From contig NZ_CP152017.1 of the NCBI RefSeq assembly GCF_038618305.1, positions 1,961,501-2,025,500 on the forward strand: 64,000 nucleotides of DNA, read 5' to 3'. Both the position numbers and the translations under genes were made by a program. Shown here piece after piece: positions 14,412 through 60,587 of the stretch. The first letter of the stretch is position 1; every line of letters starts with the position of its first letter. The notes under the pieces were generated by a model, which saw only the letters and a program-made list of their open reading frames with translations, was not told the DNA's origin and made no database searches. Source of the DNA: Sporosarcina sp. FSL K6-2383. Its GTDB lineage: Bacteria; Bacillota; Bacilli; Bacillales_A; Planococcaceae.

Positions 14412-14560
14412 AGCCTCCGGCGGATGTCAGGGATTTTGAAAGGAGTCAAGAAGGAAGTCTAAGTGCGCGACGTCCTGTCGCAACGACTGCATAACCTACA
14501 TCCTGTTGGTCTCAAGCTCAATTCAAAATCCCGACGCAATTACGCCAAGGCGTAATTGAT
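14412..14560. repeat. Structured dispersed repeat, copy A
   Basis: About 150 bp, GC-rich against its surroundings, sitting where the licR unit and the gal operon converge. A closing stem GGGATTTTGAA (14430-14440) with TTCAAAATCCC (14522-14532) encloses a hairpin GCGAC-GTCCT-GTCGC (14467-14481) and another around ACCTACATCCTGTTGGT; a third hairpin, CAATTACGCC with GGCGTAATTG (14537-14558), follows. Copy B at 53457-53605 is closely similar with paired changes in the stems. It looks like an extragenic repeat family of the host. Confidence 0.75.
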
Positions 14561-46469: not shown

Positions 46470-47486
46470 ATGTGGTCTGCCGATCAATATTTGAATAGTT
46501 TGTATCAGGAAAGTATGAAATCTCACAATAATGTGAACGAAAAAGCAGCGAAGTTAGATTTGAAAAATAAATTCCAACAATTATTAGGAAATTTTGAAGA
46601 AAAGAAAAAAAATTTAGAACCTCTGTTAGTGGAACAAGCAGATATGGGCTCTTATCTTCGATTACGGGTCGAACTTTCAACGATCGATTCGTTGAGAATG
46701 CCTGTGTATCTATTAATCCCTAAAAATAGGGAAGAGACTAAATTGCCGGCAGTACTCGCACTTCATGGACATGGGTATGGGAGTAAAGAGGCTGTTGGCT
46801 TAAATCCAGATGGTTCGAAAAGAAAAAATCAAGGCTATCATAAGCAGTTTGCAATTGAGCTTGTCAAAAAAGGTGTTGTTGTCATTGTCCCTGAGTTAAT
46901 TGGCTTCGGAGATCGTAAATTACAGTCTGATCAGGGGAATGGCTCTCCTACAGACAACTCATGCTATATGATTGCAAGCCAATTACTCTTACTTGGAAAG
47001 ACACTGGCAGGTCTCAGGGTACAAGAGTGCAGACGTGTCATCGATTATTTACAAACGCTTGAGGAAGTGGATGAAGGGAAAATTGGTTGTATCGGGATAT
47101 CTGGTGGGGGGCTTGTTGCTTCATTTACCTCTATTCTGGATGAACGAATAAAAGCTACAGTTATAAGTGGTTATACCAGCACATTTAAAGGCAGTATTAT
47201 GGATAGAAGACACTGTTTGGATAATTATATACCGGGGCTATTAATGTATACTGAAATGCCTGATTTAATTGGATTAATCGCACCAAGGCCTTTATTTATT
47301 GAAGCAGGTACGACCGATCATCTTTTTCCAATGAAAGAGTCGTTAGTTGCGATCGAGAGACTAGCGAATATTTATAAAGCGTTAGATACAGAAGCATCGT
47401 TTTCCTCGCATATATTCGAGGGCGGACACGAAATAAGCGGAGAAAAATCATTTGAATGGCTAATCCGTCAACTATCAATTGCATAA
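46470..47486 (+). CDS. Alpha/beta-hydrolase, acetyl-xylan-esterase-like
   Basis: 338 residues, no signal peptide. Oxyanion segment LALHGHGYGS (~92), nucleophile in GISGGG (~212), Asp in GTTDHLFP (~285) and His in GGHEIS near the end make a full catalytic triad. A helical N-terminal extension fits the AXE1/PF12715-type carbohydrate esterases. Likely removes acetyl or methyl esters from imported pectic oligosaccharides. RBS GAGAGGGGG. Last gene of the Lpl-type operon. Confidence 0.82.
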   Translation: MWSADQYLNSLYQESMKSHNNVNEKAAKLDLKNKFQQLLGNFEEKKKNLEPLLVEQADMGSYLRLRVELSTIDSLRMPVYLLIPKNREETKLPAVLALHGHGYGSKEAVGLNPDGSKRKNQGYHKQFAIELVKKGVVVIVPELIGFGDRKLQSDQGNGSPTDNSCYMIASQLLLLGKTLAGLRVQECRRVIDYLQTLEEVDEGKIGCIGISGGGLVASFTSILDERIKATVISGYTSTFKGSIMDRRHCLDNYIPGLLMYTEMPDLIGLIAPRPLFIEAGTTDHLFPMKESLVAIERLANIYKALDTEASFSSHIFEGGHEISGEKSFEWLIRQLSIA

Positions 47487-47541
47487 TAATTGACATATCT
47501 GTTGATTAACTATTTGCTTGCATAAATTGCTGCTCAGCAAA

Positions 47542-48120
47542 GGCTTGAACCCCATTTTTGCTGGACTATTTCTGATTTACTTTCGGCGAAATATTCAAGA
47601 CATAATTACCACAGAAAAAGCATGGCTAGAAACGACTTCCTCATTTCTAGCCATGCTTTTTTGGTCATCTTGTTATGAATAATCGCCTGTCGCATCCCAG
47701 AAATGTTTTAGTGAAAAATGCCGTTGCTTGAAAAGGAAAGAATAGAATGGATAACCTTCCATAAGAATGTAAGTTCCCGAAGATACAATTTCGGGAACTT
47801 TTGCACGTTATACAAGGTGTGTCTACTTTACTTTTAGCAAGCTCTATACTTCCTGAAATAATAAAGGATAAGACCATGGTGAAACATTCAGCCGCCAAAA
47901 TTGTATCTTTGGCGGCTCTCTCCAGTTAAGAAGTCTTCTATTCACTCATCCCCAAAAGTATTTGTACTTCATGTATCTACGTTTTTGGAAAGCGGTGGAT
48001 GAACGACGACCATACAATTACCGAAAGAAATGAATAGGGATGCGACAAAGTCGCATCCCTATTCATAAAAACATCACGGATATTGTATAGAGGTCGTTCA
48101 ATCCAAAGCGAACCAAAAGC
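47542..48120. repeat. Large structured non-coding element, copy 1
   Basis: About 580 bp without an ORF, between convergent genes. Hairpins: 47620-47656 (13 bp, A/T outer pairs); 47771-47800 (11 bp, loop GATACAAT); 47890-47917 (10 bp, loop ATTGTATC); 48032-48064 (15 bp). The loops of the second and third are exact complements. An inverted copy lies at 59884-60462, roughly 80% identical by eye, with paired stem changes. It may encode a large structured RNA or be a MITE-like element; the direction of transcription is unresolved. Confidence 0.8.
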
Positions 48121-48156
48121 AAGTGAACCTAAAGCACCTGGTGTGTACTTGAAAAC

Positions 48157-50451
48157 CTATCCTTGCTTATCTTCACGATACTTTCCAGGAGTTATTCCCT
48201 CAACCTTTTTAAAGGATCGAATAAAATTTTGTGAGTTTTTATAATTTAGTCTTTCAGCGATTTCTTTCACTGTGCTATTCGTTTCTTCTAACCATTTCTT
48301 CGCAACATTAATTCGATATAACGCCAAATAATCACTAAATGATGTATTTGTTTCTTTTCTGAAGATGCTGCTTAAATAATTTGCATTGTAATGTAGCTTA
48401 TCGGCAATATAATTCAACGTTAAATCCGAATCGAACTCTTGTTGAACGATGTGAATAATCTCATCTGAAATATTTTTGTATTGAGACTGTGTTCGCTCTT
48501 CAGACTCATCCATCATCGGATAAATGATTAGATTTTTAAACCAATTGACTACTTCAGGAAGCGTTCTAAATTCGTATAGTTGATTGAATAAAGATTTATG
48601 ACCATCATATTTTAAGACGTTTACACCAAGTGTTTCAGTCAATTTTATTAAATTCGTGAGTAAGCGTACAATGGCAATTTCATGTTGTGTATTACTTAAT
48701 TCTTCATTGAATAGAGATTCTAAAAGCTTATCCAAATTTTGATCGACTTCAAGTTTATCTCCCATTTTAATGGCGTTAAATAGTTCATTTTCAATATGCT
48801 TTGGATAAAATGTAAAGAAGCTAGAGTCACTTTGTAGGTTTTCATAAAAAATGATGGAGCCCGGCCCAAATTTAAGCACATGCCTAAGTGCCTCACGACT
48901 TTCTTTAAATGCTTCATGTGCATCCGTCAGGGCCTCGTATGTCTGACTAATACCTACACTGATTGATATACCTAAATCATTTAGTACTTCTAATTTAATA
49001 TCTTTAATCATCGTAGTAAGCGATTCTGCATAGTGTCTGTCTTCTATTTCATCATCCAAAAATAGTGTTACTTGTGTTTTGTTTATGACAATAGGGGTCA
49101 TTCTTTTATTTGACGGAATTAATTTTTCAATCATCGTATTCACCGTGAATAATAAGATTTCTTCATTGTCGATATTGTATTCTGTATCTTCTACCGAATC
49201 AATTTGAAGTGTAAGCACCGAAAACCTTTTCCAGCTTTGTGTATACCCAAATGATTGCAGCTTATTTGGCAATTCTTCATTGCTAATATTTCCTTGTAGA
49301 AGGCGAGCCATAAAGAATTGTTTTAACTGTACAATTTGCCCGTGGAGCCTAGATTCTAACTCATCATTTTGTTCGAGTACATGTTGAATTTGACTTTCTA
49401 TCATACTAAACTCATCAATCTTCTTACCGCTTTGAGAGATACTTGAAAGTGAATTCGAAAGCGTAGAGGTTATGCGATTAATCGGTGCGTAAAGTCTATG
49501 TGATGCGATTAAGGAAAGTAGAATGGCACCAAGTAAAATGACAGTACTAATGAGTAGCGTAAACCAGCCGATTGAATTTGACTGTTTATTTAATTCGCTA
49601 ATCTTAATCATAGAAATATAGGTCCAGTTATTATAGGCAGATTTTCTATAGGTAACCTTGTAATCGCTTCCATTTAGTGCGATATCATACTGTCCTTTAT
49701 TGTTTTGAAGCTCATTTAGTTCTGAGATAAAGGATTGGCTTGAAAAATTGGTGCCAATTTCTTTAGAATCACTATGTGCAATGACGGTATAATTTTCATC
49801 TAAAACCATTAAGGATTCTGATTCTAAATGACTCGTTAGCATATCTGTGAAATCACAAACAGGTACATAGGCAATGGCAATTCCAGTTTTTTTATTTGAA
49901 TTAAGGGGCAACTTTTTTACGAGACTAATATAATGATTACATGAATTACCTTCACTTGAGTCATACAAAACCTGATCTTCTTTTTCGATTATCCAAGAGG
50001 ATTTATAAGGTAAATCAGAATACTTTTCAATAATATCGTTGGCCTGTCCTTCTCCCAATCTTCTAAGGCCGTTGTTATTGATACGCCACCCTTGCTCAAG
50101 ACTGACCAATAAAAAGTTAGAAACTCCACTATCGGATCGTTGTAGCTGATTGATTTCTTTTTTTGTTTGATGATAGAGCTGAAATTGATAAGTTGTTAAT
50201 GGTTCTTTCAATGTTTTATTTAGTTGGTGTGATGTTACAAATGTCGTAACAGAGAGATCGACTGTTTGCAAAACTTGTTCAAAGTTAGTTTGAATCTGAT
50301 AGATGCTTTGTTGTTTTTCTTCGGCAACATTGGATTGAATAATTTCCGCTGATTTTAAGTAAGAAAATAAACCGACTATAATAACGGGGAGTGTTGCTAA
50401 GATTGTGACAATAGTCAATAGCTTCGTATAAATTTTCTTTCGATTTTTCAT
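48157..50451 (-). CDS. AraC family regulator with membrane-bound sensor domain (YesS-like)
   Basis: 764 residues. A membrane segment at ~8-30, an extracellular Cache-like sensor domain (~35-290), a second membrane segment (~295-318), a cytosolic GGDEF-like remnant region and a C-terminal AraC double helix-turn-helix (LTLNYIADKLHYNANYLSSIF and VKEIAERLNYKNSQNFIRSF). Length and layout match Bacillus YesS, the activator of rhamnogalacturonan genes. ATG 50451 follows AAAGGAGACC; a start at 50478 lies before that RBS. It diverges from the YteS-like gene across 272 bp holding both promoters. Confidence 0.9.
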   Translation of the reverse strand: MKNRKKIYTKLLTIVTILATLPVIIVGLFSYLKSAEIIQSNVAEEKQQSIYQIQTNFEQVLQTVDLSVTTFVTSHQLNKTLKEPLTTYQFQLYHQTKKEINQLQRSDSGVSNFLLVSLEQGWRINNNGLRRLGEGQANDIIEKYSDLPYKSSWIIEKEDQVLYDSSEGNSCNHYISLVKKLPLNSNKKTGIAIAYVPVCDFTDMLTSHLESESLMVLDENYTVIAHSDSKEIGTNFSSQSFISELNELQNNKGQYDIALNGSDYKVTYRKSAYNNWTYISMIKISELNKQSNSIGWFTLLISTVILLGAILLSLIASHRLYAPINRITSTLSNSLSSISQSGKKIDEFSMIESQIQHVLEQNDELESRLHGQIVQLKQFFMARLLQGNISNEELPNKLQSFGYTQSWKRFSVLTLQIDSVEDTEYNIDNEEILLFTVNTMIEKLIPSNKRMTPIVINKTQVTLFLDDEIEDRHYAESLTTMIKDIKLEVLNDLGISISVGISQTYEALTDAHEAFKESREALRHVLKFGPGSIIFYENLQSDSSFFTFYPKHIENELFNAIKMGDKLEVDQNLDKLLESLFNEELSNTQHEIAIVRLLTNLIKLTETLGVNVLKYDGHKSLFNQLYEFRTLPEVVNWFKNLIIYPMMDESEERTQSQYKNISDEIIHIVQQEFDSDLTLNYIADKLHYNANYLSSIFRKETNTSFSDYLALYRINVAKKWLEETNSTVKEIAERLNYKNSQNFIRSFKKVEGITPGKYREDKQG

Positions 50452-50723
50452 CAAATGGTCTCCTTTGTTCAGAAACATTTAAATATGAATCATATTTAAT
50501 TATTTTTAGAAGAATTAGTTTGTCAAGTAAACTTAATTATAACATATGGATTACTGAAATACAGTGTGCATTTTTAGTCTTCTTTTATAACAATGTACTG
50601 ATATTGTTTTAAATAGAAAAGTGATTCACTTTTTCTAGTTAACCAGTTTAGATGATTATAGATGTGATAGGTAAGTTGCGCTAAAATGAGAGCCAACAAT
50701 GAAAATGAGGGGCAATGTTGAGT

Positions 50724-51272
50724 ATGATGAAAAAAAATAACTTGAGGCCAGTAGTTGTATTTATAGCGCTTGCTTGTTTAATTATTTTAGTAAGCTGTCA
50801 ACAGCAGACGGATAATGAAGAGTTTCAAATTCTCGTTTTCTCGAATATATCAAGGGAAACCTTGACAGATATGCAGGCGGATATGAAGCTTGAGTTGGAA
50901 AACGTTGAGATTGTATTGTACCCATCTGTAGCTGAAAGGCTCATGATAGAAATTGTTCGCCACGCGGGAGATATTTTAATTATGGATCGAGAACTATTGG
51001 CAACAGCATATGATTCCAAAGAGCTTCACGCATTAGATGACTTTAGAGATGACAGCAACACAGTTGCATTAACTGATTTTGAAATAGTGGCATTGGAAGC
51101 AGCTGATGAAGAGGTGAATATAGAACAAATTTATCCTAACGCAATCCACATCAATTATATGGAGAAATATGAAGTTGGTTCTGATCCGATTGAACTTGTT
51201 GCGATTATTCCTAAATACACAAAGAATAAAGAAATGGCCTTTTCAGTTTTGAAGGGACTTGTTCAAGAATAG
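50724..51272 (+). CDS. Small lipoprotein, YteS-like
   Basis: 182 residues. The signal peptide ends at the lipobox LVSC (Cys25), so it is anchored outside the membrane. The mature part begins FQILVFSNISRETLTDM, a beta-alpha start like that of a truncated solute-binding protein. Position before YteU- and YteT-like genes matches the Bacillus yte cluster. ATG 50724 is 11 nt after TGAGGGG; an ATG at 50715 is too close. Function unknown. Confidence 0.8.
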   Translation: MMKKNNLRPVVVFIALACLIILVSCQQQTDNEEFQILVFSNISRETLTDMQADMKLELENVEIVLYPSVAERLMIEIVRHAGDILIMDRELLATAYDSKELHALDDFRDDSNTVALTDFEIVALEAADEEVNIEQIYPNAIHINYMEKYEVGSDPIELVAIIPKYTKNKEMAFSVLKGLVQE

Positions 51273-51292
51273 AAGTAGAAGGGGTGATTGAA

Positions 51293-51949
51293 ATGGAGTT
51301 AGAAGGCATAGCTGGACGCTTTTTAAGAGTTAGTGAAATGATTACCAGAATGGCTTATGTAAATTTATTGTGGATTTTATTCACGCTGCTCGGACTGGGG
51401 ATCTTTGGATTTATGCCTGCTACTGTTGCATTGTTTACGGTGACTCGTAAGTGGGTGATGGGGGATAAGGATATTCCTGTGTTTAAAACATTTTGGAAGA
51501 CTTATCGCCAAGAGTTTTTCAAGTCAACATTATTTGGTGTAATGCTTTTTGTAATCGGTTACATTATTTATATTGATTTGGCATTTTCACCAACAGGTGG
51601 TTTATTTACATTATTGAGAATTGCTTTATTTCTATGCGGGGTTTTGTATGTTGTCTTGTTACTCTATATTTTCCCGATTTATGTACATTACGATTGGAGT
51701 AAAAGACTATACATTAAGTATGCACTGTTAATTGGGATATCGTATCCGCATTATACTTTTATCTTAATGGCCGGGATTGTAGCTCTGTATTACCTTTGCA
51801 TCTCAATACCAGGAATTATTCCATTTTTCAGTGTTAGCCTTTTATCGTATATGATGATGTGGCTTGTGTATAAGGTAATTCGGAAGATGGAGTTAACGCA
51901 ATCAATAGGAAAGGAAGAAGGAATAGAGACACAATCTGTAGAAGCATAA
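51293..51949 (+). CDS. DUF624 membrane protein (YesL/YteU-like)
   Basis: 218 residues and about five to six membrane helices, with NLLWILFTLLGLGIFGFMPA near the N terminus and TRKWVMGDKDIPVFKTFWKTY following, both typical of DUF624. Members sit in nearly every oligosaccharide importer cluster of Bacillales; the role is unknown but probably supports transport. RBS AGAAGGGGTG. Its stop overlaps an ATG as TAATG. Confidence 0.85.
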   Translation: MELEGIAGRFLRVSEMITRMAYVNLLWILFTLLGLGIFGFMPATVALFTVTRKWVMGDKDIPVFKTFWKTYRQEFFKSTLFGVMLFVIGYIIYIDLAFSPTGGLFTLLRIALFLCGVLYVVLLLYIFPIYVHYDWSKRLYIKYALLIGISYPHYTFILMAGIVALYYLCISIPGIIPFFSVSLLSYMMMWLVYKVIRKMELTQSIGKEEGIETQSVEA

Positions 51950-51978
51950 TGACAAAAAAAGATATGGGAGCTGGGGAA

Positions 51979-53262
51979 ATGAGTAAAAAGTATGTATTAG
52001 TAGGTACAGGTGGAAGAGCGGAATTTTTTTACGGGGCAATGGTAAGGGATTTTAAGGATACTTGTCAGTTAGTCGCTTTTTGTGATGTCAATCAAACAAG
52101 AATGGATTACTCAAACCGTTTATTGGAAGAAAAGTATGATCATCCTCAAATTGCAACTTATTTAGCTAGTGAATTTGAAACGATGATCGCGAAAGAAAAA
52201 CCAGATATCGTCATTGTGACAACGGTGGATCGCACGCATCATACATATATTATTAGGGCATTGGAGCTAGGTTGTGATGTCATTACTGAAAAACCAATGA
52301 CGATAGATGCTGAGAAGACACAGGAAATTATTGATGCGATTAAGCGAACAGGTCAAGAAGTACGTGTCACGTTTAACTATCGCTACGCGCCGCATAATAC
52401 AAAAATTAGAGAGCTTATTCGAGACGGTGTTATTGGGGATGTCTATTCTGTTAATTTTGAATGGGCATTGGATACGCAGCACGGCGCGGATTACTTCCGT
52501 AGATGGCATCGTAATAAAGCGAATAGTGGCGGCTTGCTCGTTCATAAATCCACACATCATTTTGATTTAGTGAATTTTTGGTTAAATACAACACCTGAAA
52601 CGGTTTACGCTACGGGTGGTTTACATTTTTACGGCAAAGAAAATGCTGAAAAACGAGGAGAAACAAAGTTTTACCAGCGTGCACATGGCAGTGAAAATGC
52701 CAAAAATGATCCTTTCGCCATTCAGTTGGAGGACAATCCTCACTTGAAGTCGCTTTACTTAGATGCGGAAAAAGATGATGGTTATCAACGCGATCAAAGT
52801 GTTTTCGGGGATGGCATTGATATTGAAGACACATTAGGTGTAATGGTGACGTATAAAAACAAAGCGATTTTAACATATTCACTCAATGCTTATTTGCCTT
52901 GGGAAGGGTTTATTGTGTCCTTTAATGGCAGTAAAGGGAGAATTGAAGTAGAAGTTCGTGAACAATCGTATATTAACTCTGGCGGTTCGAAAGAAGATGA
53001 AGGCAAGTTAAAGGAAAAATCAGTAAGGGTGTTACCGATGTTCGGAGAGCCTTATGAAGTAGAAATCATTGAAGGGGAAGGCGGACATGGTGGAGGGGAT
53101 CCGATATTATTGCAAGATCTCTTCGGTACGCCAACAGAAGATGAATTCAATCGTGCTGCCTCTCATATAGATGGGGCAACATCAATTCTAACTGGAATTG
53201 CAGGCAATATTTCATTGAAAACAGGCCAAGCAGTTAAGTTAGACGATTTAATTCAATTTTAA
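51979..53262 (+). CDS. Gfo/Idh/MocA family oxidoreductase (YteT-like)
   Basis: 427 residues, longer than usual because of an insertion in the C-terminal half (~215-270), as in YteT. NAD loop VGTGGRAEFFYG at the N terminus, ITEKPMT (~107) and the HKSTHHFDLVNFW catalytic region. ATG 51979 has GGGAG nine nt upstream and gives the MSKKYVLVG start; an ATG at 51949 overlapping the previous stop is possible. Probably oxidises or reduces a sugar from rhamnogalacturonan. Confidence 0.88.
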   Translation: MSKKYVLVGTGGRAEFFYGAMVRDFKDTCQLVAFCDVNQTRMDYSNRLLEEKYDHPQIATYLASEFETMIAKEKPDIVIVTTVDRTHHTYIIRALELGCDVITEKPMTIDAEKTQEIIDAIKRTGQEVRVTFNYRYAPHNTKIRELIRDGVIGDVYSVNFEWALDTQHGADYFRRWHRNKANSGGLLVHKSTHHFDLVNFWLNTTPETVYATGGLHFYGKENAEKRGETKFYQRAHGSENAKNDPFAIQLEDNPHLKSLYLDAEKDDGYQRDQSVFGDGIDIEDTLGVMVTYKNKAILTYSLNAYLPWEGFIVSFNGSKGRIEVEVREQSYINSGGSKEDEGKLKEKSVRVLPMFGEPYEVEIIEGEGGHGGGDPILLQDLFGTPTEDEFNRAASHIDGATSILTGIAGNISLKTGQAVKLDDLIQF

Positions 53263-53399
53263 CTTTATTCAGCAAATACTTTTGTACTGAAAGCGAAGCG
53301 TCAGCTACAGAAGTCTCCCACTTGTATAATTGGCGAGATGAATGTGAATTAGATTTGTAATTCAGTGGGGTTCAAACACCTGCAGAATGGGGGAACGCA

Positions 53400-53605
53400 G
53401 GCTAAGTTCGCCACGTCCTGTGGCAACGCCTGCATGACCAACGTCTTGTCGGCCCAAGCCTCCGGCGGATGTCACGGATTTTGAAGGGAGTTAAGGATGG
53501 CTGTCTAAGTTCGCGACGTCCTGTCGCAGCGACTGCATGACCTACATCCTGTAGGTCTCAAGCTCAATTCAAAATCCGGACGCAATCACGCCGGGGCGTG
53601 ATGGA
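53400..53605. repeat. Structured dispersed repeat, copy B with an extra half-module
   Basis: 53457-53605 matches the repeat at 14412-14560. The closing stem is CGGATTTTGAA with TTCAAAATCCG (copy A has G-C where B has C-G), enclosing GCGAC-GTCCT-GTCGC and GACCTACA-TCC-TGTAGGTC; the third hairpin is ATCACGCC with GGCGTGAT. Upstream, 53402-53460 repeats the first part with the hairpin GCCAC-GTCCT-GTGGC. No ORF in this 455-bp gap. Confidence 0.75.
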
Positions 53606-53622
53606 TCTAATGTTCAAAGCCC

Positions 53623-53661
53623 TAGCCCCCACTACAAGGAAAACAGTGTAGATGGGGGCTA
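53623..53661. terminator. Hairpin before the SGNH esterase gene
   Basis: TAGCCCCCACTAC pairs with GTAGATGGGGGCTA with one bulge. A TATAAT (53686-53691) lies downstream, so this may end the YteT unit before a new promoter. Confidence 0.5.
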
Positions 53662-53717
53662 AAGTAGTATATAAAAGAGGTATGCTATAATTTTTTTAAA
53701 CAGGAAGGTGATTCATA

Positions 53718-54371
53718 TTGAAGAAAAAAATAAGCATTTATTTGGCAGCAGATTCAACTGTACGGAATTACGATGCTAGTGAATACCCGCAAGCCGGCTG
53801 GGGGCAATTTATAGCGGATTATTTAACAGCTGAAGTGATGATTGAAAACCATGCAGTGGGAGGGAAAAGCTCAAAAACATTCATTACAGAAGGGTTGCTC
53901 GATCCTATAATGGATGCAATCGAAGAACACGATTATTTGTTTATTCAGTTCGGGCATAATGATTCAACGAAAAATCGTCCAGAACGTTATACGGAAGCGT
54001 ATGATGATTATAAAATATACTTACAGCAATATATTGATAAGGCGAGAGCTAAAAAGGCGATTCCGCTGTTAGTTACTCCAGTTGGTAGGCTTCATTATGT
54101 GAATGGAGAATTTTTGATGGATTTTGGGGATTACTGCAACGCGATGAAAGAAGTTGCAGAAGCTAATGATGTATTCATCATTGATCTGATGACAAAAAGT
54201 ATTGATTACCTTTCATCCATTGGCTACGATCGTGCAAAAGAACTGTATATGATAACCGTGAATGGAACGGATTGTACCCATTTTACTGAACAAGGGGCAA
54301 AAGAAATGGCAAGGTTAGTTTATCAGGAAATTAAAGAATTGAATTGTAGTCTATCTAGCTATGTAAAATGA
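53718..54371 (+). CDS. Rhamnogalacturonan acetylesterase (SGNH hydrolase, CE12; YesY/RhgT-like)
   Basis: 217 residues, no signal peptide. The four SGNH blocks are present: AADSTVRNY with the nucleophile Ser, a Gly in AVGGKSSKTF, IQFGHNDSTK with Asn, and TDCTHFTEQGA with the Asp/His pair. It deacetylates imported rhamnogalacturonan fragments in the cytosol. TTG start at 53718 with AGGAAGGTGA upstream. Confidence 0.9.
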   Translation: MKKKISIYLAADSTVRNYDASEYPQAGWGQFIADYLTAEVMIENHAVGGKSSKTFITEGLLDPIMDAIEEHDYLFIQFGHNDSTKNRPERYTEAYDDYKIYLQQYIDKARAKKAIPLLVTPVGRLHYVNGEFLMDFGDYCNAMKEVAEANDVFIIDLMTKSIDYLSSIGYDRAKELYMITVNGTDCTHFTEQGAKEMARLVYQEIKELNCSLSSYVK

Positions 54372-54378
54372 TAGAAGA

Positions 54379-54400
54379 GGTATCCTTATAGTGGGATACC
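54379..54400. other. Small hairpin between convergent genes
   Basis: GGTATCC (54379-54385) pairs with GGATACC (54394-54400) around an 8-nt loop. No T run; possibly a weak terminator. Confidence 0.4.
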
Positions 54401-54419
54401 CCTTGCAGTAGATTAGAAA

Positions 54420-55733
54420 TTATTCACTCAGAAGTTTCTTGTTTTTGAAATGGTCACTCATTCGGTAAATGATGATTCCAACAATCACTAGCCCAGCTAG
54501 CTCACCCAAGGATGCTGCAATCGCACCGTTCACTCCGTTTAACTGAGGAAATAGCTGAATGAGTATTACCATCGTCGAAACCACAACAACCAAATTTGCC
54601 ATTTGAGCAAAAAGCATTTTCTTTGTTTGTCGTCTAAGCATCAAAAATCCATTGAGAAAATCAACCCAAGGAAAAACAAGTGTTTTTATGATGAAGAATT
54701 TCAATACTGTAATTGTTGCTAAGGATAAGGCTTCATCAGCACCCATAACACCTTGCATAAATGCCATTCCAAGGGGAGTGTAGCATAATAGGCACAATAA
54801 TAACGTCGGAATGATACTAGCAAAAATCACGAATTTCACGACTTTTTGTTTGTTCACAGCATAAAATTGTAGCACTAATTGATGCGTGTACATGAAAAAT
54901 CCTAAAATCAAATTGGTAATACTAAACGCTAAGGCAAATGATGCAATGCTCATTTCGATATTACCCGATTTCGCTAATAAAATATAGATAACGGGAGTAA
55001 GAATCGTTTGCATAAGAAAATAGTACATCAACGGAAAATAAAATTTTGAAATATCTGCTTTGACCAATGGGGGAGAATCGACTGGATCTAATCCATTTCT
55101 TAGCAGTGAATCCCCTTTGTAAATACTAACTAGACATTCAATGAGCATTCCTACAAGAAAGATAATCGCTCCACTGGCACTCGTAATGAAATCGTAACTT
55201 ACCATTAAATAAGCAGTTATAAACATCGCAATCAGTCTAGCGACAACGCCAATTGTTAACCAATTCGTCGCTAGTTGTGTAATGATAATGCCCTGATATA
55301 AGCCGCGGATTCCAGAGAAAATAATGACTAAAATAATAACTTTAAAAGCTAGTGAAACTGCCCCGACCATATTCGCCGTTGCTCCGAAAATGGTTGTATA
55401 AATCCAGTGACCTAATGGGCTAAATGCAATAACTACACTGATTAACATTGTGGCTACTAAGACATAAATAAAAAATATGCTTACTAATTTAAATGACCTT
55501 TTATCAGTGACCAATGCTGAGGATGTTTGTCGGAACACAATCATCGGTCTTTCTAGAATACTGAATAAGGACATTGCAATTGCATAACAAGCGATAATAA
55601 AAGCAGCATGCTCACCTCTACTTAATGTACCGTTAATAATCACATGTGTAATTGAAGTTAAACTTGCCGAGACACCTAGCGGAATAAAAAAAGCACTTAG
55701 CTGTCCATAAGATAACCGACCCGATGAATGCAA
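54420..55733 (-). CDS. Polytopic membrane protein, MATE/flippase-like
   Basis: 437 residues with about twelve hydrophobic segments. The arrangement of helices and LNGVNGAIAASLGELAGL near the C terminus recall the MOP (MATE/polysaccharide flippase) superfamily, but no family is certain. The start is TTG at 55733 with a weak RBS (GATGGGG). A promoter and a palindromic operator lie right upstream, and a second palindrome precedes the divergent uxaE gene, so it is likely regulated with uronate catabolism and may move a uronate or oligosaccharide. Confidence 0.75.
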   Translation of the reverse strand: MHSSGRLSYGQLSAFFIPLGVSASLTSITHVIINGTLSRGEHAAFIIACYAIAMSLFSILERPMIVFRQTSSALVTDKRSFKLVSIFFIYVLVATMLISVVIAFSPLGHWIYTTIFGATANMVGAVSLAFKVIILVIIFSGIRGLYQGIIITQLATNWLTIGVVARLIAMFITAYLMVSYDFITSASGAIIFLVGMLIECLVSIYKGDSLLRNGLDPVDSPPLVKADISKFYFPLMYYFLMQTILTPVIYILLAKSGNIEMSIASFALAFSITNLILGFFMYTHQLVLQFYAVNKQKVVKFVIFASIIPTLLLCLLCYTPLGMAFMQGVMGADEALSLATITVLKFFIIKTLVFPWVDFLNGFLMLRRQTKKMLFAQMANLVVVVSTMVILIQLFPQLNGVNGAIAASLGELAGLVIVGIIIYRMSDHFKNKKLLSE

Positions 55734-55766
55734 GAAACAAACCCCATCTCATTAATTAATCGCTCT

Positions 55767-55817
55767 AAGTAACAACGTTGTTATTTTGAGTGTAATGATC
55801 TTTGATTGTTATTTCAA
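55767..55817 (-). promoter_or_regulatory. Promoter and LacI-type operator of the flippase-like gene
   Basis: Minus strand: TTGAAA (55812-55817), a 17-nt spacer, TACACT (55789-55794), then the palindrome TAACAACGTTGTTA (55770-55783) just past the -10 box. The layout is that of a repressed promoter. Confidence 0.7.
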
Positions 55818-55907
55818 CTAGAAAGATTAATATAGATTGATATTTTAGAATCTACGGATTAAAAGTATAACAATTACTTGCTCTTTCTTTGAAAATCAAT
55901 TATCATG

Positions 55908-55929
55908 AAAATAACAACGTTGTTATTTT
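55908..55929. promoter_or_regulatory. LacI-type operator upstream of uxaE
   Basis: A perfect 22-bp palindrome with core ATAACAACGTTGTTAT and central CG, 139 bp before the uxaE start. It matches the site at 55770 and half of the site at 42624 beside the LacI gene. Confidence 0.7.
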
Positions 55930-56067
55930 GTTGTTATACGTATCGTATTCATAAAAAAAGTAGATAAAAAGCTCTCTTATTGAGAGGGTGTAGTATGGCA
56001 ATTGATTTTCGAATAGTTTAGTACTCAAGTAAAAATAATTCAAATAAAATACAAAGGATTGATTAGA

Positions 56068-57561
56068 ATGAAGCAATTATTGCCAACGATTGAGTTATTA
56101 GAACAAGGAAAAGTAGCAGCTCAAACGGAGCAAGTGACGGTCTATCAAGAATCGTATACAAATCATGAAAATGTCCATTTATTGATGGTTAAAGTGAACG
56201 GTGAAAAATTTATTTTAGCAACTGGAAGCGGTTCCATTTACGATGAATTAGCAGGGACAAATGTTGAAGGAAAAGGAAAAGTATGTTCATTGACTTATGG
56301 AAACCGACTTGTTTTGAATCGCTATTTCCCTTATACGGCTCCGCAAGCATTTGGTACAAAAATTGCAACGATAGGTTTAGGAGATCGCTTAGGTTTAGCA
56401 TCCCCTGGACATATTGAAACGGTCAATGGAAGAAATATAAAACCAGTGCTTGCCCAACAAAGTATTCGTGAGTTGACACTAACAAATCGCTCCATGACTG
56501 ATATGCTAGATGCCGCTGCATATGCGGTTTTCCAAGAAGGTTATACAGGCGGATACGGTGCAGACGGCGATCATATCAAGCTTGAATCAGACATTAAATA
56601 TGCCTTATCACTTGGTGTATCCATGATTACTTTGGATTGCTCAGATCAAATCGACAAAACAATCGAGGAAGCAACCGATGAAGTCATTGCAAAAGAGTTT
56701 GCTAAAGTTCCAGAAGACGTTAAACAAGTATATTTTGAGAAATATTTAAATAAAACTTTTGAAGTGAACGGTCTATCTTTATCTTTCGATGAAACCTCAT
56801 TAATGAGAAACATCTTGCTGTATGATGAAGCTATTACGTACACAACACATGTTTACAATGAGTACATCAGTAAAGAAGACCGTGCGATTGACTTTGAAAT
56901 TTCAATTGATGAAACGGAAACTGTTACAGCACCGATTTCTCATTTCTTCGTTGCTAATGAACTGATCGAAAGAGGCGTGACAGTCGTCAGTCTTGCTCCG
57001 AGATTCTGTGGAGAATTCCAAAAAGGAATTGACTATATCGGAGACGTAGTTCAATTTGAAGTTGAATTGCGTGAACATGCGTTAATTGCTGAGCATTTCG
57101 GGTATAAGTTAAGTATCCACTCCGGCAGCGATAAGTTTAAGGTGTTCCCAATTATTGCGAAATATACAAAAGGAATTTTCCATGTAAAAACGGCTGGCAC
57201 AAACTGGCTTGAAGCTATCCGAGTCATCGCGGTTACAAATCCTGGCTTATATAGACGTATGCATAAATTTGCACTGGAAAACTTTGAAGAAGCGCTGAAA
57301 TACTACCATGTAACACCTGACTTAGACAGCGTTGTTTCACTTGAAAGTGTTGCGGATAATCAGCTTGTGGAATATATGAATAATGATGCGGCACGCCAGC
57401 TGTTTCACGTCACATATGGTTTGATTTTGACTGCAAAAGATAAAAAAGGTGAATTTGTATTTAGAGATGAATTATTTAAAACACTGGATGTACATGAAGC
57501 AGATTATCGGGCGGCACTCGTTAACCATATCGGGAAGCATATCGATCTACTAGGACTGTGA
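56068..57561 (+). CDS. uxaE: Tagaturonate epimerase (tagaturonate to fructuronate)
   Basis: 497 residues, the length of the UxaE family first described in Thermotoga. Landmarks are the N-terminal ATGSGSIYDELAGT, the GYTGGYGADGDHIK segment (~155-170) and LSIHSGSDKFKVFP (~350). It links the galacturonate and glucuronate branches by C3 epimerisation and so replaces the UxaB/UxaA branch. ATG 56068 is nine nt after AAAGGA; a TTG at 56059 abuts that RBS. Confidence 0.88.
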   Translation: MKQLLPTIELLEQGKVAAQTEQVTVYQESYTNHENVHLLMVKVNGEKFILATGSGSIYDELAGTNVEGKGKVCSLTYGNRLVLNRYFPYTAPQAFGTKIATIGLGDRLGLASPGHIETVNGRNIKPVLAQQSIRELTLTNRSMTDMLDAAAYAVFQEGYTGGYGADGDHIKLESDIKYALSLGVSMITLDCSDQIDKTIEEATDEVIAKEFAKVPEDVKQVYFEKYLNKTFEVNGLSLSFDETSLMRNILLYDEAITYTTHVYNEYISKEDRAIDFEISIDETETVTAPISHFFVANELIERGVTVVSLAPRFCGEFQKGIDYIGDVVQFEVELREHALIAEHFGYKLSIHSGSDKFKVFPIIAKYTKGIFHVKTAGTNWLEAIRVIAVTNPGLYRRMHKFALENFEEALKYYHVTPDLDSVVSLESVADNQLVEYMNNDAARQLFHVTYGLILTAKDKKGEFVFRDELFKTLDVHEADYRAALVNHIGKHIDLLGL

Positions 57562-57574
57562 AGTCAAGAATAAA

Positions 57575-57617
57575 ATTTTAACTAGCTACTCCATATACAG
57601 GAGTAGCTAGTTAAAAT
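57575..57617. terminator. Strong hairpin after uxaE
   Basis: An 18-bp perfect stem (57575-57592 with 57600-57617) and a 7-nt loop; no T run on the plus side. Probably ends or trims the uxaE transcript. Confidence 0.65.
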
Positions 57618-57632
57618 GAAAACTATTTTTGA

Positions 57633-57661
57633 TTGACAATTTGAGCTTTGAAAAGTAAGGT
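57633..57661 (+). promoter_or_regulatory. Possible larE promoter
   Basis: TTGACA (57633-57638), a 17-nt spacer and TAAGGT (57656-57661); the -35 box is perfect and the -10 box weak. Confidence 0.4.
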
Positions 57662-57706
57662 TACGGTAGAATCTTATAAAAATCAAGAAAAGTGAGGCGA
57701 AAGAGC

Positions 57707-58543
57707 ATGAGCGAAGTAATGAATGACAAGAACCGTCATCTTGGTGAAGTACTTACAGAGATGGGACGCGTTATCGTCGCTTTTTCCGGTGGTGTTGACA
57801 GTGCATTAGTATTGAAACGTGCACAGGAAGAGCTTGGCGACCAAGTTCTAGCTGTTGTTGTTGCATCAGAATTGTTCCGCAAACAGGAATTTGAGGATGC
57901 AGTCCAATTGGCTAAAGACATGGGTGTTCAAGTATACAAAACAGAAATTAAAGAATTAGAAAATCCAGACATTGCAGCGAACACGCCTGATAGCTGGTAT
58001 TACAGTAAGAAAATGCTTTATTCTCATCTCAATGATTTAGCTGGGGAGTTAGGTTATCCGTATGTGCTAGATGGCATGATTATGGACGACTTAGACGATT
58101 TCCGCCCAGGAATGAGAGCAAGAACAGAGGCAGGGGCACGTAGTGTGCTTCAAGAAGTCGGATTATTTAAGCATGAAGTTCGTGAACTTGCAAGTCAATT
58201 AGGACTCCCAGTTTGGGATAAACCTGCATCTTGCAGCCTTGCATCAAGAATTCCTTACGGTATTGAGCTTGATAAGCATAAAATTGAACAAGTCGATCAG
58301 GCCGAAATCTTTTTGGCTAAACTTGGATTTGCTCAAGTACGTGTCCGTCATCATGGCAATGTTGCTCGCATTGAAGTCACACCAGAAGAAATCACGGAAT
58401 TAGTGAAGCATCGCGATCAAATCCAACTAAAACTTACTTCACTTGGTTTTGCATATGTTTCATTGGATTTACGTGGATACCGCACAGGAAGCATGAACGA
58501 AGAGTTATCTGAAGAAGTGTTAGAATCAAAATTAGCACAATAA
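57707..58543 (+). CDS. larE: ATP-dependent sacrificial sulfur transferase LarE
   Basis: 278 residues. The PP-loop VAFSGGVDSALV (~25) binds ATP and the only cysteine of the protein lies in KPASCSLASRIPYG (~176), the place of the sacrificial sulfur donor of Lactiplantibacillus LarE. It thiolates the pyridinium mononucleotide on the way to the nickel-pincer cofactor. ATG 57707 has GAGGCGA upstream; a GTG at 57692 lies at that RBS. It follows uxaE; larA and larB are not in the window, and larC is 24 kb away. Confidence 0.92.
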   Translation: MSEVMNDKNRHLGEVLTEMGRVIVAFSGGVDSALVLKRAQEELGDQVLAVVVASELFRKQEFEDAVQLAKDMGVQVYKTEIKELENPDIAANTPDSWYYSKKMLYSHLNDLAGELGYPYVLDGMIMDDLDDFRPGMRARTEAGARSVLQEVGLFKHEVRELASQLGLPVWDKPASCSLASRIPYGIELDKHKIEQVDQAEIFLAKLGFAQVRVRHHGNVARIEVTPEEITELVKHRDQIQLKLTSLGFAYVSLDLRGYRTGSMNEELSEEVLESKLAQ

Positions 58544-58558
58544 TTTTCAGGAAATATC

Positions 58559-58596
58559 AAATATGCCCTGCTACTTAATTGTAGTGGGGTATATTT
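58559..58596 (+). terminator. Terminator-like hairpin after larE
   Basis: AAATATGCCCTGCTAC pairs with 58581-58596 using three G-T pairs that form only in plus-strand RNA; a short T stretch follows. Confidence 0.6.
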
Positions 58597-58636
58597 GTGT
58601 ATCAAGTCTGTAATTGGACACCGAGTAATAAAAAAC

Positions 58637-58663
58637 TTGAAAAGTAGAGCGTTTACATATAAT
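58637..58663 (+). promoter_or_regulatory. Promoter-like region with a motif shared with uxaC
   Basis: TTGAAA (58637-58642) and TATAAT (58658-58663) are 15 nt apart, a short spacer. AAAGTAGAGCGTTTACAT (58641-58658) differs by two bases from 28368-28385 in the uxaC promoter, suggesting a shared regulator. Confidence 0.5.
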
Positions 58664-58753
58664 CTAACTATAGATAAATAATTAATTTGTCGGATAAACA
58701 AAATAAATGGTTGACGAAAAATTCGGTTTAATCAAAAGTAAGGGAGTAGATGA

Positions 58754-59830
58754 ATGATGAGTAAGGATGGAATGACATATGCGCCAAAGGGTAAGCCAAA
58801 TCCGGTTGTAAAAGAGGGGGAATTTGTGATTGCAGTTGCTGCGCTTGATCATGGCCATATTTATGGGATGTGTAATGGTCTAGTAGAAGCAGGTGCTACA
58901 TTGAAATATGTATATGATCCTGATAAGAAAAAAGTGGCAGACTTCGTTGAAAAATATCCCGACGTCGAGGTAACAGATTCGCTCGAACAAATTTTAACTG
59001 ATGAAACGATTAAGTTAGTGGCTGCTGCTGCAATCCCATCTAAGCGCAGTGCACTTGGAAATCGGGTAATGGAAGCTGGTAAGGATTACTTCACAGATAA
59101 AACACCATTTACAACGATGGCTCAATTAGAAGAAACAAAGAAGGTTGTCAAACAAACTGGACAAAAATATATGGTCTATTTCAGTGAGCGTCTCCATGTT
59201 GAAGGGGCAGTTTTCGCCGGCGACTTGATTAAAGATGGGGCAATTGGTCGCGTACTTCAAGTGACTGGTTTTGGCCCACATCGCTTAAATGCTTCAAGTC
59301 GACCAGATTGGTTCTTTAATAAGGAACAATACGGTGGAATTCTATGCGATATTGGGAGCCATCAAATTGAACAGTTCTTATATTACGCAGATTGTAAGGA
59401 TGCTGAAATATTGCATAGTAAAGTAGCGAACTATAATAACCCTGAATATCCGGAATTAGAGGATTATGGTGATACCACATTAGTTGGTGACAATGGCGCA
59501 ACACAATATTTCAAAGTGGACTGGTTTACGCCAGATGGGTTAAGTACATGGGGAGATGGACGGACGTTTATTACGGGAACAGAAGGAACGATTGAAATCC
59601 GTAAATACGTCGATGTTGCAAGGGAAGCAACAGGAGATCATCTATTCTTAGTGAATAAAGATGGCGAGAAACATTATAAGTTATCAGGTGAGGTTGGATT
59701 TCCTTTCTTTGGGGAACTTATTTTAGATTGTATTCATCGCACAGAAAAAGCAATGACGCAGGCTCATGCCTTTAAAGCAGCCGAACTATGCTTACTTGCA
59801 CAAGAACAAGCAATAGTTGTATCTAAGTAA
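58754..59830 (+). CDS. Gfo/Idh/MocA family oxidoreductase
   Basis: 358 residues. VAALDHGHIYGMCNGL replaces the usual G-x-G-x-x-G start, and TDKTPFTT stands where EKP normally lies, so it belongs to a divergent branch that still keeps the Lys. ILCDIGSHQIEQFLYYA is the conserved D-x-G-x-H region. RBS TAAGGGAG precedes the ATG at 58754 (58757 also possible). Single gene after larE; the substrate is unknown. Confidence 0.85.
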   Translation: MMSKDGMTYAPKGKPNPVVKEGEFVIAVAALDHGHIYGMCNGLVEAGATLKYVYDPDKKKVADFVEKYPDVEVTDSLEQILTDETIKLVAAAAIPSKRSALGNRVMEAGKDYFTDKTPFTTMAQLEETKKVVKQTGQKYMVYFSERLHVEGAVFAGDLIKDGAIGRVLQVTGFGPHRLNASSRPDWFFNKEQYGGILCDIGSHQIEQFLYYADCKDAEILHSKVANYNNPEYPELEDYGDTTLVGDNGATQYFKVDWFTPDGLSTWGDGRTFITGTEGTIEIRKYVDVAREATGDHLFLVNKDGEKHYKLSGEVGFPFFGELILDCIHRTEKAMTQAHAFKAAELCLLAQEQAIVVSK

Positions 59831-59883
59831 ACCACGTCTATTGCATTCTTAATTAAACATTAGGAACTTCGTGTATAGCTGTT

Positions 59884-60462
59884 TGTGGTCGCTTTTGGAT
59901 TGAACGACCTCTATAACAATAACCTTGTAATTTTATGAATAGGGATGCGACTTCGTCGCATCCCTATTCGTTTTTTCGGTAATTGTATGGTGATCGTTCA
60001 TCCGTCGCTTTCTAAAAATACAAGTACACGAAGTGCAAATGCTTTTAAGGATGAGAGAATAGAAGACTTCTTAACTGGAGTGAGCAGCCAAAGATACAAT
60101 TTTGGCTGCTGAAGCTTTCGTCATGGCGTCTTTCATTGTTATTTGAAGGAGTTATAACTTTTTCTATAAACCTTTCAAAAAGTAAAATGGAGACACTTTG
60201 TACAACGTGCAAAAGTGCCCGAAATTGTATCTTCGAGCACTTACATTCTTGTAGAAAGTTATCTATTCTTTCTTTTCCAAGTAACGGCATTTTTCACTAA
60301 AACATTTCTGGAATGCAACAGGCGATTATTCATAACAAGATTACCAAAAGAGTGTATTTAGAAATGACGAAGTCATTTCTAAATACACTCACTCCACGGT
60401 AATGATGTCATGAATAAATTTGCCAAAAGCAAACCAGAAATAATCCAGTGAACAAGCCAGTT
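59884..60462. repeat. Large structured non-coding element, copy 2 (inverted)
   Basis: Reverse-complement copy of 47542-48120. Hairpins at 59937-59969, 60083-60110 (loop GATACAAT), 60213-60242 (loop ATTGTATC) and 60350-60390 match those of copy 1. Stem bases differ in pairs: the 60350 stem differs from its partner at about six positions yet stays fully paired. The complementary loops are identical in both copies. No ORF. Confidence 0.8.
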
Positions 60463-60587
60463 TTTTATAGATGTGAATGTACTTATTTGTAGATAGATAT
60501 AGGATTATAGAACAAAAAACGTAAAATTAAATGCGGAGAGATATCTCAATTAGGTAAAGATTTTGTCAATAGGGTAAAGATAGTACA

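Follow-up and report, generated by a model that had tools for sequence, protein, structure and literature searches.

An old non-coding mobile element family of Sporosarcina with paired stem changes and inverted loops in its outer hairpins

Does a gene-free stretch of DNA with four clear hairpins, present twice and differing between its copies by paired base changes, encode a structured RNA under selection, or is it something else? The window analyzed here (the whole 64,000-nucleotide stretch of Sporosarcina sp. FSL K6-2383) holds such a stretch at 47542-48120. A sequence-only reading took it for a candidate large structured RNA and named a MITE-like mobile element as the alternative. It is the alternative that was borne out: terminal inverted repeats (TIRs), 9-bp target-site duplications (TSDs), many copies and an IS4-family partner identify the repeat as an old non-coding mobile element family of Sporosarcina and not a new large RNA, and a mobile element takes the place of a candidate new RNA class. 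As a whole, the observations are best explained by a MITE that is moved by an IS4-type transposase, with outer hairpins altered by template switching and serving as inward-facing terminators at gene 3′ ends, a reading to which we assign a probability of roughly three in four. The family is otherwise a MITE; its interest lies in how the outer hairpins have evolved.

Two copies of a quasi-palindromic element

The second copy that had been noted at 59884-60462 is indeed present, in inverted orientation, and the two copies (A and B) align at 80% over most of their length. The true element is longer than first noted: copy A begins at 47494, copy B extends from 59833 to about 60523, and the full element measures about 730 bp. 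The features of the two copies are as follows.

47494..48155, + strand: copy A; retains its left end, with the right terminal repeat eroded or lost
47494..47510, + strand: left TIR of copy A, CATATCTGTTGATTAAC; the family has CACGTCTGTTGATTAAC
47616..47660, + strand: copy A hairpin H1; loop of 3 nt; followed by a T-run on the + strand; possible terminator
47771..47800, + strand: copy A hairpin H2; loop of 8 nt, GATACAAT; sequence conserved family-wide
47890..47917, + strand: copy A hairpin H3; loop of 8 nt, ATTGTATC; mirrors H2; conserved in sequence
48030..48066, - strand: copy A hairpin H4; loop of 3 nt; mirrors H1; resembles a terminator on the - strand, tail TTCTTTCGGT
59833..60523 (right boundary approximate), - strand: copy B; in opposite orientation to copy A
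59935..59971, + strand: hairpin H4 of copy B; terminator-like on the + strand, tail TTTTTTCGGTA
60083..60110, - strand: hairpin H3 of copy B
60213..60242, - strand: hairpin H2 of copy B
60350..60390, - strand: hairpin H1 of copy B; terminator-like on the - strand, tail TTTTGGTAAT

Both window copies lack an intact pair of ends. The left TIR of copy A carries two mismatches to the 17-bp repeat of the family; on its right side, similarity to other copies fades near 48155 and the best TIR candidate carries seven mismatches, and because this end is lost a TSD cannot be scored for copy A. The right end of copy B at 59833 (CACGTCTATTGCATTCT) differs from the 17-bp repeat at six positions and its presumed left end (60507-60523) at seven, and its flanking 9-mers, compared by eye, are identical at six of nine positions. 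Both copies lie close behind genes: copy A starts at the eighth base past the stop codon of an alpha/beta-hydrolase-like gene (46470-47486), and copy B at the third base past the stop codon of a GFO/IDH/MocA-type gene (58754-59830), which places H4 of copy B about 105 bp beyond that stop. The 11.7 kb between the inverted copies (48157-59830) encode an AraC-type regulator, GFO/IDH/MocA oxidoreductases and a UxaE tagaturonate epimerase.

Reading both copies confirmed that each contains all four hairpins and that the stems differ by compensatory changes. In the first hairpin, six stem pairs have changed on both sides and still pair, as had been reported, but the statement that all pairs are retained was slightly too strong; near the loop, copy A has two additional mismatches (C-A and C-C) where copy B has pairs. 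The T-A to G-C change in the 47771 hairpin, whose counterpart in copy B additionally has a T-G pair, and the C-G to A-T change in the 47890 hairpin are both as described. The folding energies of the two copies are extreme (z = -12.5 and -13.2), with none of 100 shuffles as good.

The element is quasi-palindromic, nearly its own reverse complement: a complete copy of 729 bp (L040, 1497-2225) matches its own reverse complement at 398 positions, compared with at most 316 in 20 shuffles. The four hairpins are thus two mirror pairs, H1 with H4 and H2 with H3, and as mirror images they give nearly the same structure on both strands. The outer hairpins, H1 and H4, have arms of 16-17 bp and 3-nt loops. 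When changes were mapped by simple parsimony on a tree of 82 copies (those with more than 450 aligned bases), H1 and H4 accumulated 6.0 and 4.75 changes per column, H2 and H3 2.25 and 2.1, and columns outside the hairpins 7.8. Together with the paired changes described below, these rates indicate that the outer stems drift in sequence, at 60-80% of the background rate, while their arms stay matched, and that H2 and H3 are conserved in sequence. Nowhere in the family is sequence more conserved than in the central hairpins (47771-47800, 47890-47917 and their counterparts).

Terminal repeats, distribution and an IS4-family partner

A 681-base query matched 56 pieces of the strain's own 3.67-Mb chromosome; these pieces are not equivalent to copies, as one copy can give several pieces and some pieces arise where the element matches itself in reverse complement. 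Matches were found in nine of 61 genomes, comprising nine of 37 from Sporosarcina and none of 24 from other genera, with two of the nine positive genomes giving one weak match each. With a full-length query, six relatives gave 82, 83, 66, 85, 30 and 3 matches (again counted as pieces rather than copies); scoring was limited to 40 candidates per genome at most. An exact-pattern scan of genome contigs returned at least five stretches, a lower bound because the pattern is strict, one of them in Sporosarcina sp. E16_8 contig NZ_JADPRZ010000002.1. Among 72,556 plasmid records there was no match.

From the loci fetched, rather than from all matches, we assembled a set of 104 copies after removing blast pieces that covered less than about 150 query bases and repeat fetches of the same copy. 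The main alignment comprises 77 near-full copies, with columns gapped in more than half of them dropped; the aligned copies are 62-93% identical, and any two differ by at least 7%. One locus (L083 1489-3960; G000:C1:3638988-3641459) holds a copy that is seemingly interrupted by an IS1595-family transposase gene (335 aa); encoded beside this gene is a possible passenger, a 194-aa protein that has SAP_new25 and DUF6434 domains. Four loci from NZ_JADHDX records titled Arthrobacter beigongshangensis REN13 (L079-L082) also carry the element. Arthrobacter has a high G+C content; the three of these loci that were measured have 38-41% G+C, and the record is probably misnamed or contaminated.

Full copies start with CACGTCTGTTGATTAAC and finish with its reverse complement, which constitutes a 17-bp TIR. 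Allowing up to three mismatches, the 17-mer occurs at 33 sites in the strain's own genome versus seven for the reversed pattern, and a 20-base form occurs at 57+63 sites (120) versus none for the control in the genome of one copy-rich relative (G031). Both ends were found at up to five mismatches in 65 of the 104 copies. Among these 65, the 9-bp sequences flanking the element match at all nine positions in 24 and at eight or more in 38; when flanks of different copies are combined, the corresponding frequencies are 0.02% and 0.24%. These target-site duplications show that the family transposes, or did. They also set it apart from palindromic elements of the PATE or IS200-IS605 type, which are defined by the lack of a target duplication.

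The element itself encodes no transposase: no reading frame inside either window copy exceeds 81 aa, and the only ORFs of at least 60 aa lying wholly within the copies, of 77 and 81 aa, are on opposite element strands. A candidate source is a 1301-bp insertion sequence (IS) in one relative (G006) that has the same 17-bp ends, with one and zero mismatches. Its 382-aa protein scores 189.1 bits against NF033592 (cut-off 115) and 90.7 bits against PF01609 (cut-off 23), and on these profile matches it is an IS4-family DDE transposase. Two copies of this IS were read; one (L089) is flanked by a 9-bp TSD, ATAAAATAC, and the other (L088) has no matching duplication. Two further genomes (G002 and G018) contain more distant IS relatives whose ends are similar (2-4 mismatches) and which are flanked by 9-bp duplications (L136 and L140). 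The IS and the element have only the terminal ~20 bp in common; we infer mobilization in trans, in which an IS4-family transposase that recognizes the same ends would have moved the element.

Could another transposase have done so? That the IS shares nothing but its ends with the element would allow it, as would the state of the copy-rich genomes G009 and G031, in which only weak, broken matches to this IS4-type transposase were found; the strain's own genome holds only an IS4 remnant, near 566.4-567.1 kb. We nevertheless consider a transposase of another type improbable, given how closely the ends of the G006 insertion sequence agree with the 17-bp repeat and given the 9-bp duplications carried by L089 and by the more divergent L136 and L140. 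For G031, with its many terminal-repeat sites yet a single weak IS4-type transposase match, the copies may have outlived their transposase.

In the part of a review of prokaryotic MITEs drawn on here, these are described as intergenic, with terminal inverted repeats and direct repeats and with transcripts predicted to form stable stem-loops, and insertion sequences are given as their main source (PMC10969869). The Sporosarcina element shares the TIRs, the direct repeats, the intergenic siting and the stem-loops; compared with the example in that part of the review, QMITE2, which consists of TIRs and a 113-145-bp core, it is longer, at about 730 bp, and it is mirror-symmetric with four hairpins (PMC10969869). 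A literature search found no paper on a Sporosarcina MITE or miniature inverted-repeat, and the sole match for Sporosarcina, IS4 family and transposase concerns fish gut microbiota. Within the Bacillales, bcr1 and other Bacillus repeats are likewise multi-copy, structured and MITE-like; bcr1, however, is about 155 bp long and has a different target duplication, and this size and duplication set it apart from the element described here.

Covariation, wobble pairs and terminator-like hairpins

The headline of the sequence-only reading, a large structured RNA under selection, proved unsupported: the element has no Rfam match at the gathering score, an all-pairs covariation test came out empty, and its ends are those of a mobile element. 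The covariance search covered the window copies and five further loci holding whole or partial copies. A search at relaxed thresholds with copy A returned other families, all with scores far below gathering. Size range is all that the element has in common with OLE, GOLLD and ROOL, from which it differs in this lack of an Rfam match and in its mobile-element ends. Elsewhere in the window, the Rfam Bacillaceae-1 RNA (RF01690) has three matches on the + strand (14443-14509, 53386-53452 and 53489-53555), the latter two in tandem, 103 bases apart.

In the larger alignment, an R-scape-like, tree-based test of all column pairs (30 simulations) yielded no pair at E < 0.05, although the four top-ranked of all pairs are stem pairs of H1 and H4, with 96-99% pairing. 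RNAalifold on the 77 aligned copies gave almost no consensus structure, in our view partly because of alignment gaps, and the hairpin columns were therefore analyzed directly. Two stretches of outer helix (12 and 8 column pairs) pair in 34-98% of copies and include one clearly compensatory pair; this pair, 119-175, shows some compensatory variation (T-A in 35 copies, C-G in 28). A kissing interaction between the H2 and H3 loops, in which GATGCAAT and ATTGCATC are complementary, was considered and rejected: exact complementarity occurs in 36 of 80 copies versus 33.5 in shuffles, and the variable position shows no covariation (Fisher p = 1.0).

Mismatches within the stems provide a test of strand, since an RNA on one strand should favor G-T over A-C mismatches on that strand. 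Across the four hairpins, mismatch-creating events on the top strand number 57 G-T and 65 A-C (p = 0.53), and by this absence of a G-T preference one RNA running through the whole element is not indicated. The individual hairpins differ, with G-T/A-C counts of 10/26 in H1, 9/13 in H2, 12/6 in H3 and 26/20 in H4. When each is read on the strand that points outward from the center (bottom for H1 and H2, top for H3 and H4), a frame that was chosen post hoc, there are 77 G-T versus 45 A-C events (p = 0.005). Background substitutions in the same frame number 1271 versus 1186 (p = 0.09), and hairpins differ from background with a Fisher p of 0.016; the excess leans on three pairs, which contribute 6, 6 and 5, or 17 of the 77 events. 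Selection on outward RNAs would produce such an excess, which is not expected from template switching alone. Selection on outward-reading RNAs, or a mutational strand bias, may lie behind it, and we know of no mechanism for a mirror-symmetric G-T bias on outward strands. Promoter-like sites in the two copies number 2 and 1, versus 2.5 and 2.7 in shuffles.

A structured non-coding RNA, or RNAs reading outward from the element center, with stems kept by RNA selection, would accommodate the extreme folding energies, the high rank of the H1 and H4 stem pairs and the post hoc outward G-T excess. We regard it as very unlikely, as it is opposed by the TIRs and TSDs, Rfam scores that never reach gathering and stay far below it when relaxed, the empty all-pairs test, outer-helix stretches that pair in no more than 34-98% of copies, the missing G-U preference for one strand throughout, H2 and H3 loops that are complementary without covarying, promoter-like sites no commoner than in shuffles and, as set out below, loops that invert.

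The outer hairpins have a second property. Downstream of H1 on the top strand, the first eight columns are 63% T, and the eight columns before H4 are 74% A; a T-rich stretch therefore follows H1 on the top strand and H4 on the bottom strand, in both cases on the strand that reads into the element. A simple terminator scan flags H4 and H2 of copy A and H1 and H4 of copy B, and misses H1 of copy A. In addition, gene 3′ ends make up 76 of the 118 gene ends (ORFs of at least 100 aa, a heuristic count) that face the 60 copies with long flanks (p = 0.002 versus one half). These patterns suggest that the outer hairpins are also candidate inward-facing terminators. The element would insert just behind genes, after which H1 and H4 would act as inward-facing intrinsic terminators on both flanks, and such inward termination could explain why copies are tolerated at gene 3′ ends. 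Putative termination of this kind is the simplest effect that the element could have on its host; if H1 and H4 do terminate transcription, they offer an example of the way in which the 3′ ends of Sporosarcina genes can tolerate or recruit a MITE. Terminator-specific selection on the top-strand RNA of H1 predicts more G-T than A-C mismatches and was rejected on the 10 versus 26 observed; the strand with the outward wobble excess is opposite to that implied by the T-runs, and the mismatch pattern shows no selection for inward termination.

A comparable arrangement is found in SPRITE of Streptococcus pneumoniae, which, in the part of the source used here, has an 18-bp stem and a U-rich tract resembling a terminator and is enriched near gene 3′ ends (PMC3049150). 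The Sporosarcina element is alike in its terminator-like stem with a T-run and in its bias toward gene 3′ ends. It differs in having 17-bp TIRs and 9-bp TSDs, where that part of the source gives SPRITE 4-nt TIRs and no established TSD, and in having two terminator-like hairpins that face inward from both ends (PMC3049150).

Origin of the paired stem changes

On the tree, H1 underwent 58 pair-by-branch double changes, 56 of them from one Watson-Crick pair to another, and H4 underwent 31, of which 28 are of this kind. When the pairing partners are slid along the alignment, the corresponding numbers are only 7-15 (0-2 between Watson-Crick pairs) for H1 and 5-8 (0-2) for H4. H2 and H3, with their 8-nt loops, show 6 and 3 double changes. 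Transversions account for 29 of the 56 Watson-Crick double changes in H1 and for 8 of the 28 in H4. The 3-nt loops of the outer hairpins changed at all three bases on 14 occasions, and in 12 of these the new loop is the exact reverse complement of the old one (TCC to GGA, TTC to GAA, AAA to TTT and GAA to TTC), versus 5 of 110 outside the hairpins (Fisher p = 3e-11).

The earlier argument from covariation to selection on structure thus stands in its first half, as the paired changes are real and exceed those of slid pairs; taken alone they do not imply selection on RNA, since these hairpins also have loops that invert, an indication of template switching in DNA. Correction of one arm together with inversion of the spacer is described, in the part of the source consulted, as the mark that template switching by DNA polymerase leaves at inverted repeats (PMC8604942), and this process has been proposed, in the corresponding part of a second source, to create and maintain RNA hairpins (PMC8794818). 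A DNA-level origin is favored here both by the inversion of loops to their exact reverse complement and by the fact that half of the double changes in H1 are transversions, which involve no G-U intermediate. A mutation in one arm of H1 or H4 would be copied onto the other arm by template switching at the replication fork, the same event would invert the loop, and most compensatory changes in these hairpins would then have arisen in DNA. The double changes need not have been simultaneous, as 44 of the 56 Watson-Crick double changes in H1 map to terminal branches and these are long. In the strongest form of this proposal, H1 and H4 would be a natural, nearly unconstrained record of template switching that produces RNA-like covariation with little or no RNA selection, while keeping a pair of inward-facing terminators working; we advance this form tentatively, at somewhat less than even odds.

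Two other accounts keep the MITE and explain the paired changes differently. The covariation of H1 and H4 could be mainly the work of natural selection for working hairpins, as terminators or DNA cruciforms, through independent second-site changes. The T-runs on the inward side of both hairpins, the terminator-like rating of H4 in copy A and of H1 and H4 in copy B, and the preference of copies for gene 3′ ends all agree with it, but selection on stems gives no reason for 12 of 14 triple loop changes to be inversions, the 29 transversions among the H1 double changes cannot have gone via G-U, and the wobble excess is on the outward strands rather than the inward ones. We judge this account rather unlikely. 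Alternatively, homologous recombination or gene conversion could shuffle whole hairpin alleles between copies, which are numerous and 62-93% identical and in which some loop types recur on separate branches. Exchange cannot, however, create new matched arms, and there are many of these: 19 distinct perfect arms among the 39 copies with a perfect H1, 13 among the 25 with a perfect H4, and 22 Watson-Crick types each present in only one or two copies, which implies that matched arms originated repeatedly. Exchange between copies may contribute to the double changes; as their main source it is an improbable one. Template switching remains the preferred explanation, and it carries the broader implication that a functional RNA cannot be deduced solely from compensatory changes within a repeat family.

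Among the matches listed for 'template switch' and 'miniature inverted-repeat', the sole paper with both terms concerns Drosophila, and no title in a second such listing deals with bacterial MITEs. The 104 diverged copies with their variable loops are a good natural test bed for the frequency of arm repair and loop inversion by template switching in bacteria. In the parts of the two sources used here, template-switch mutations at hairpins comprise multi-base compensatory changes as well as inverted loops or spacers, among them TTC/GAA spacers in yeast genes, and the cases described are in rRNA, microRNA and yeast coding genes, whereas the present hairpins belong to a mobile repeat (PMC8794818, PMC8604942). 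The rRNA table in those parts lists 69 cases in which only the loop is inverted and 6 that include a compensatory change (PMC8794818, PMC8604942), against which the Sporosarcina repeat contributes 12 loop inversions on its tree of 82 copies.
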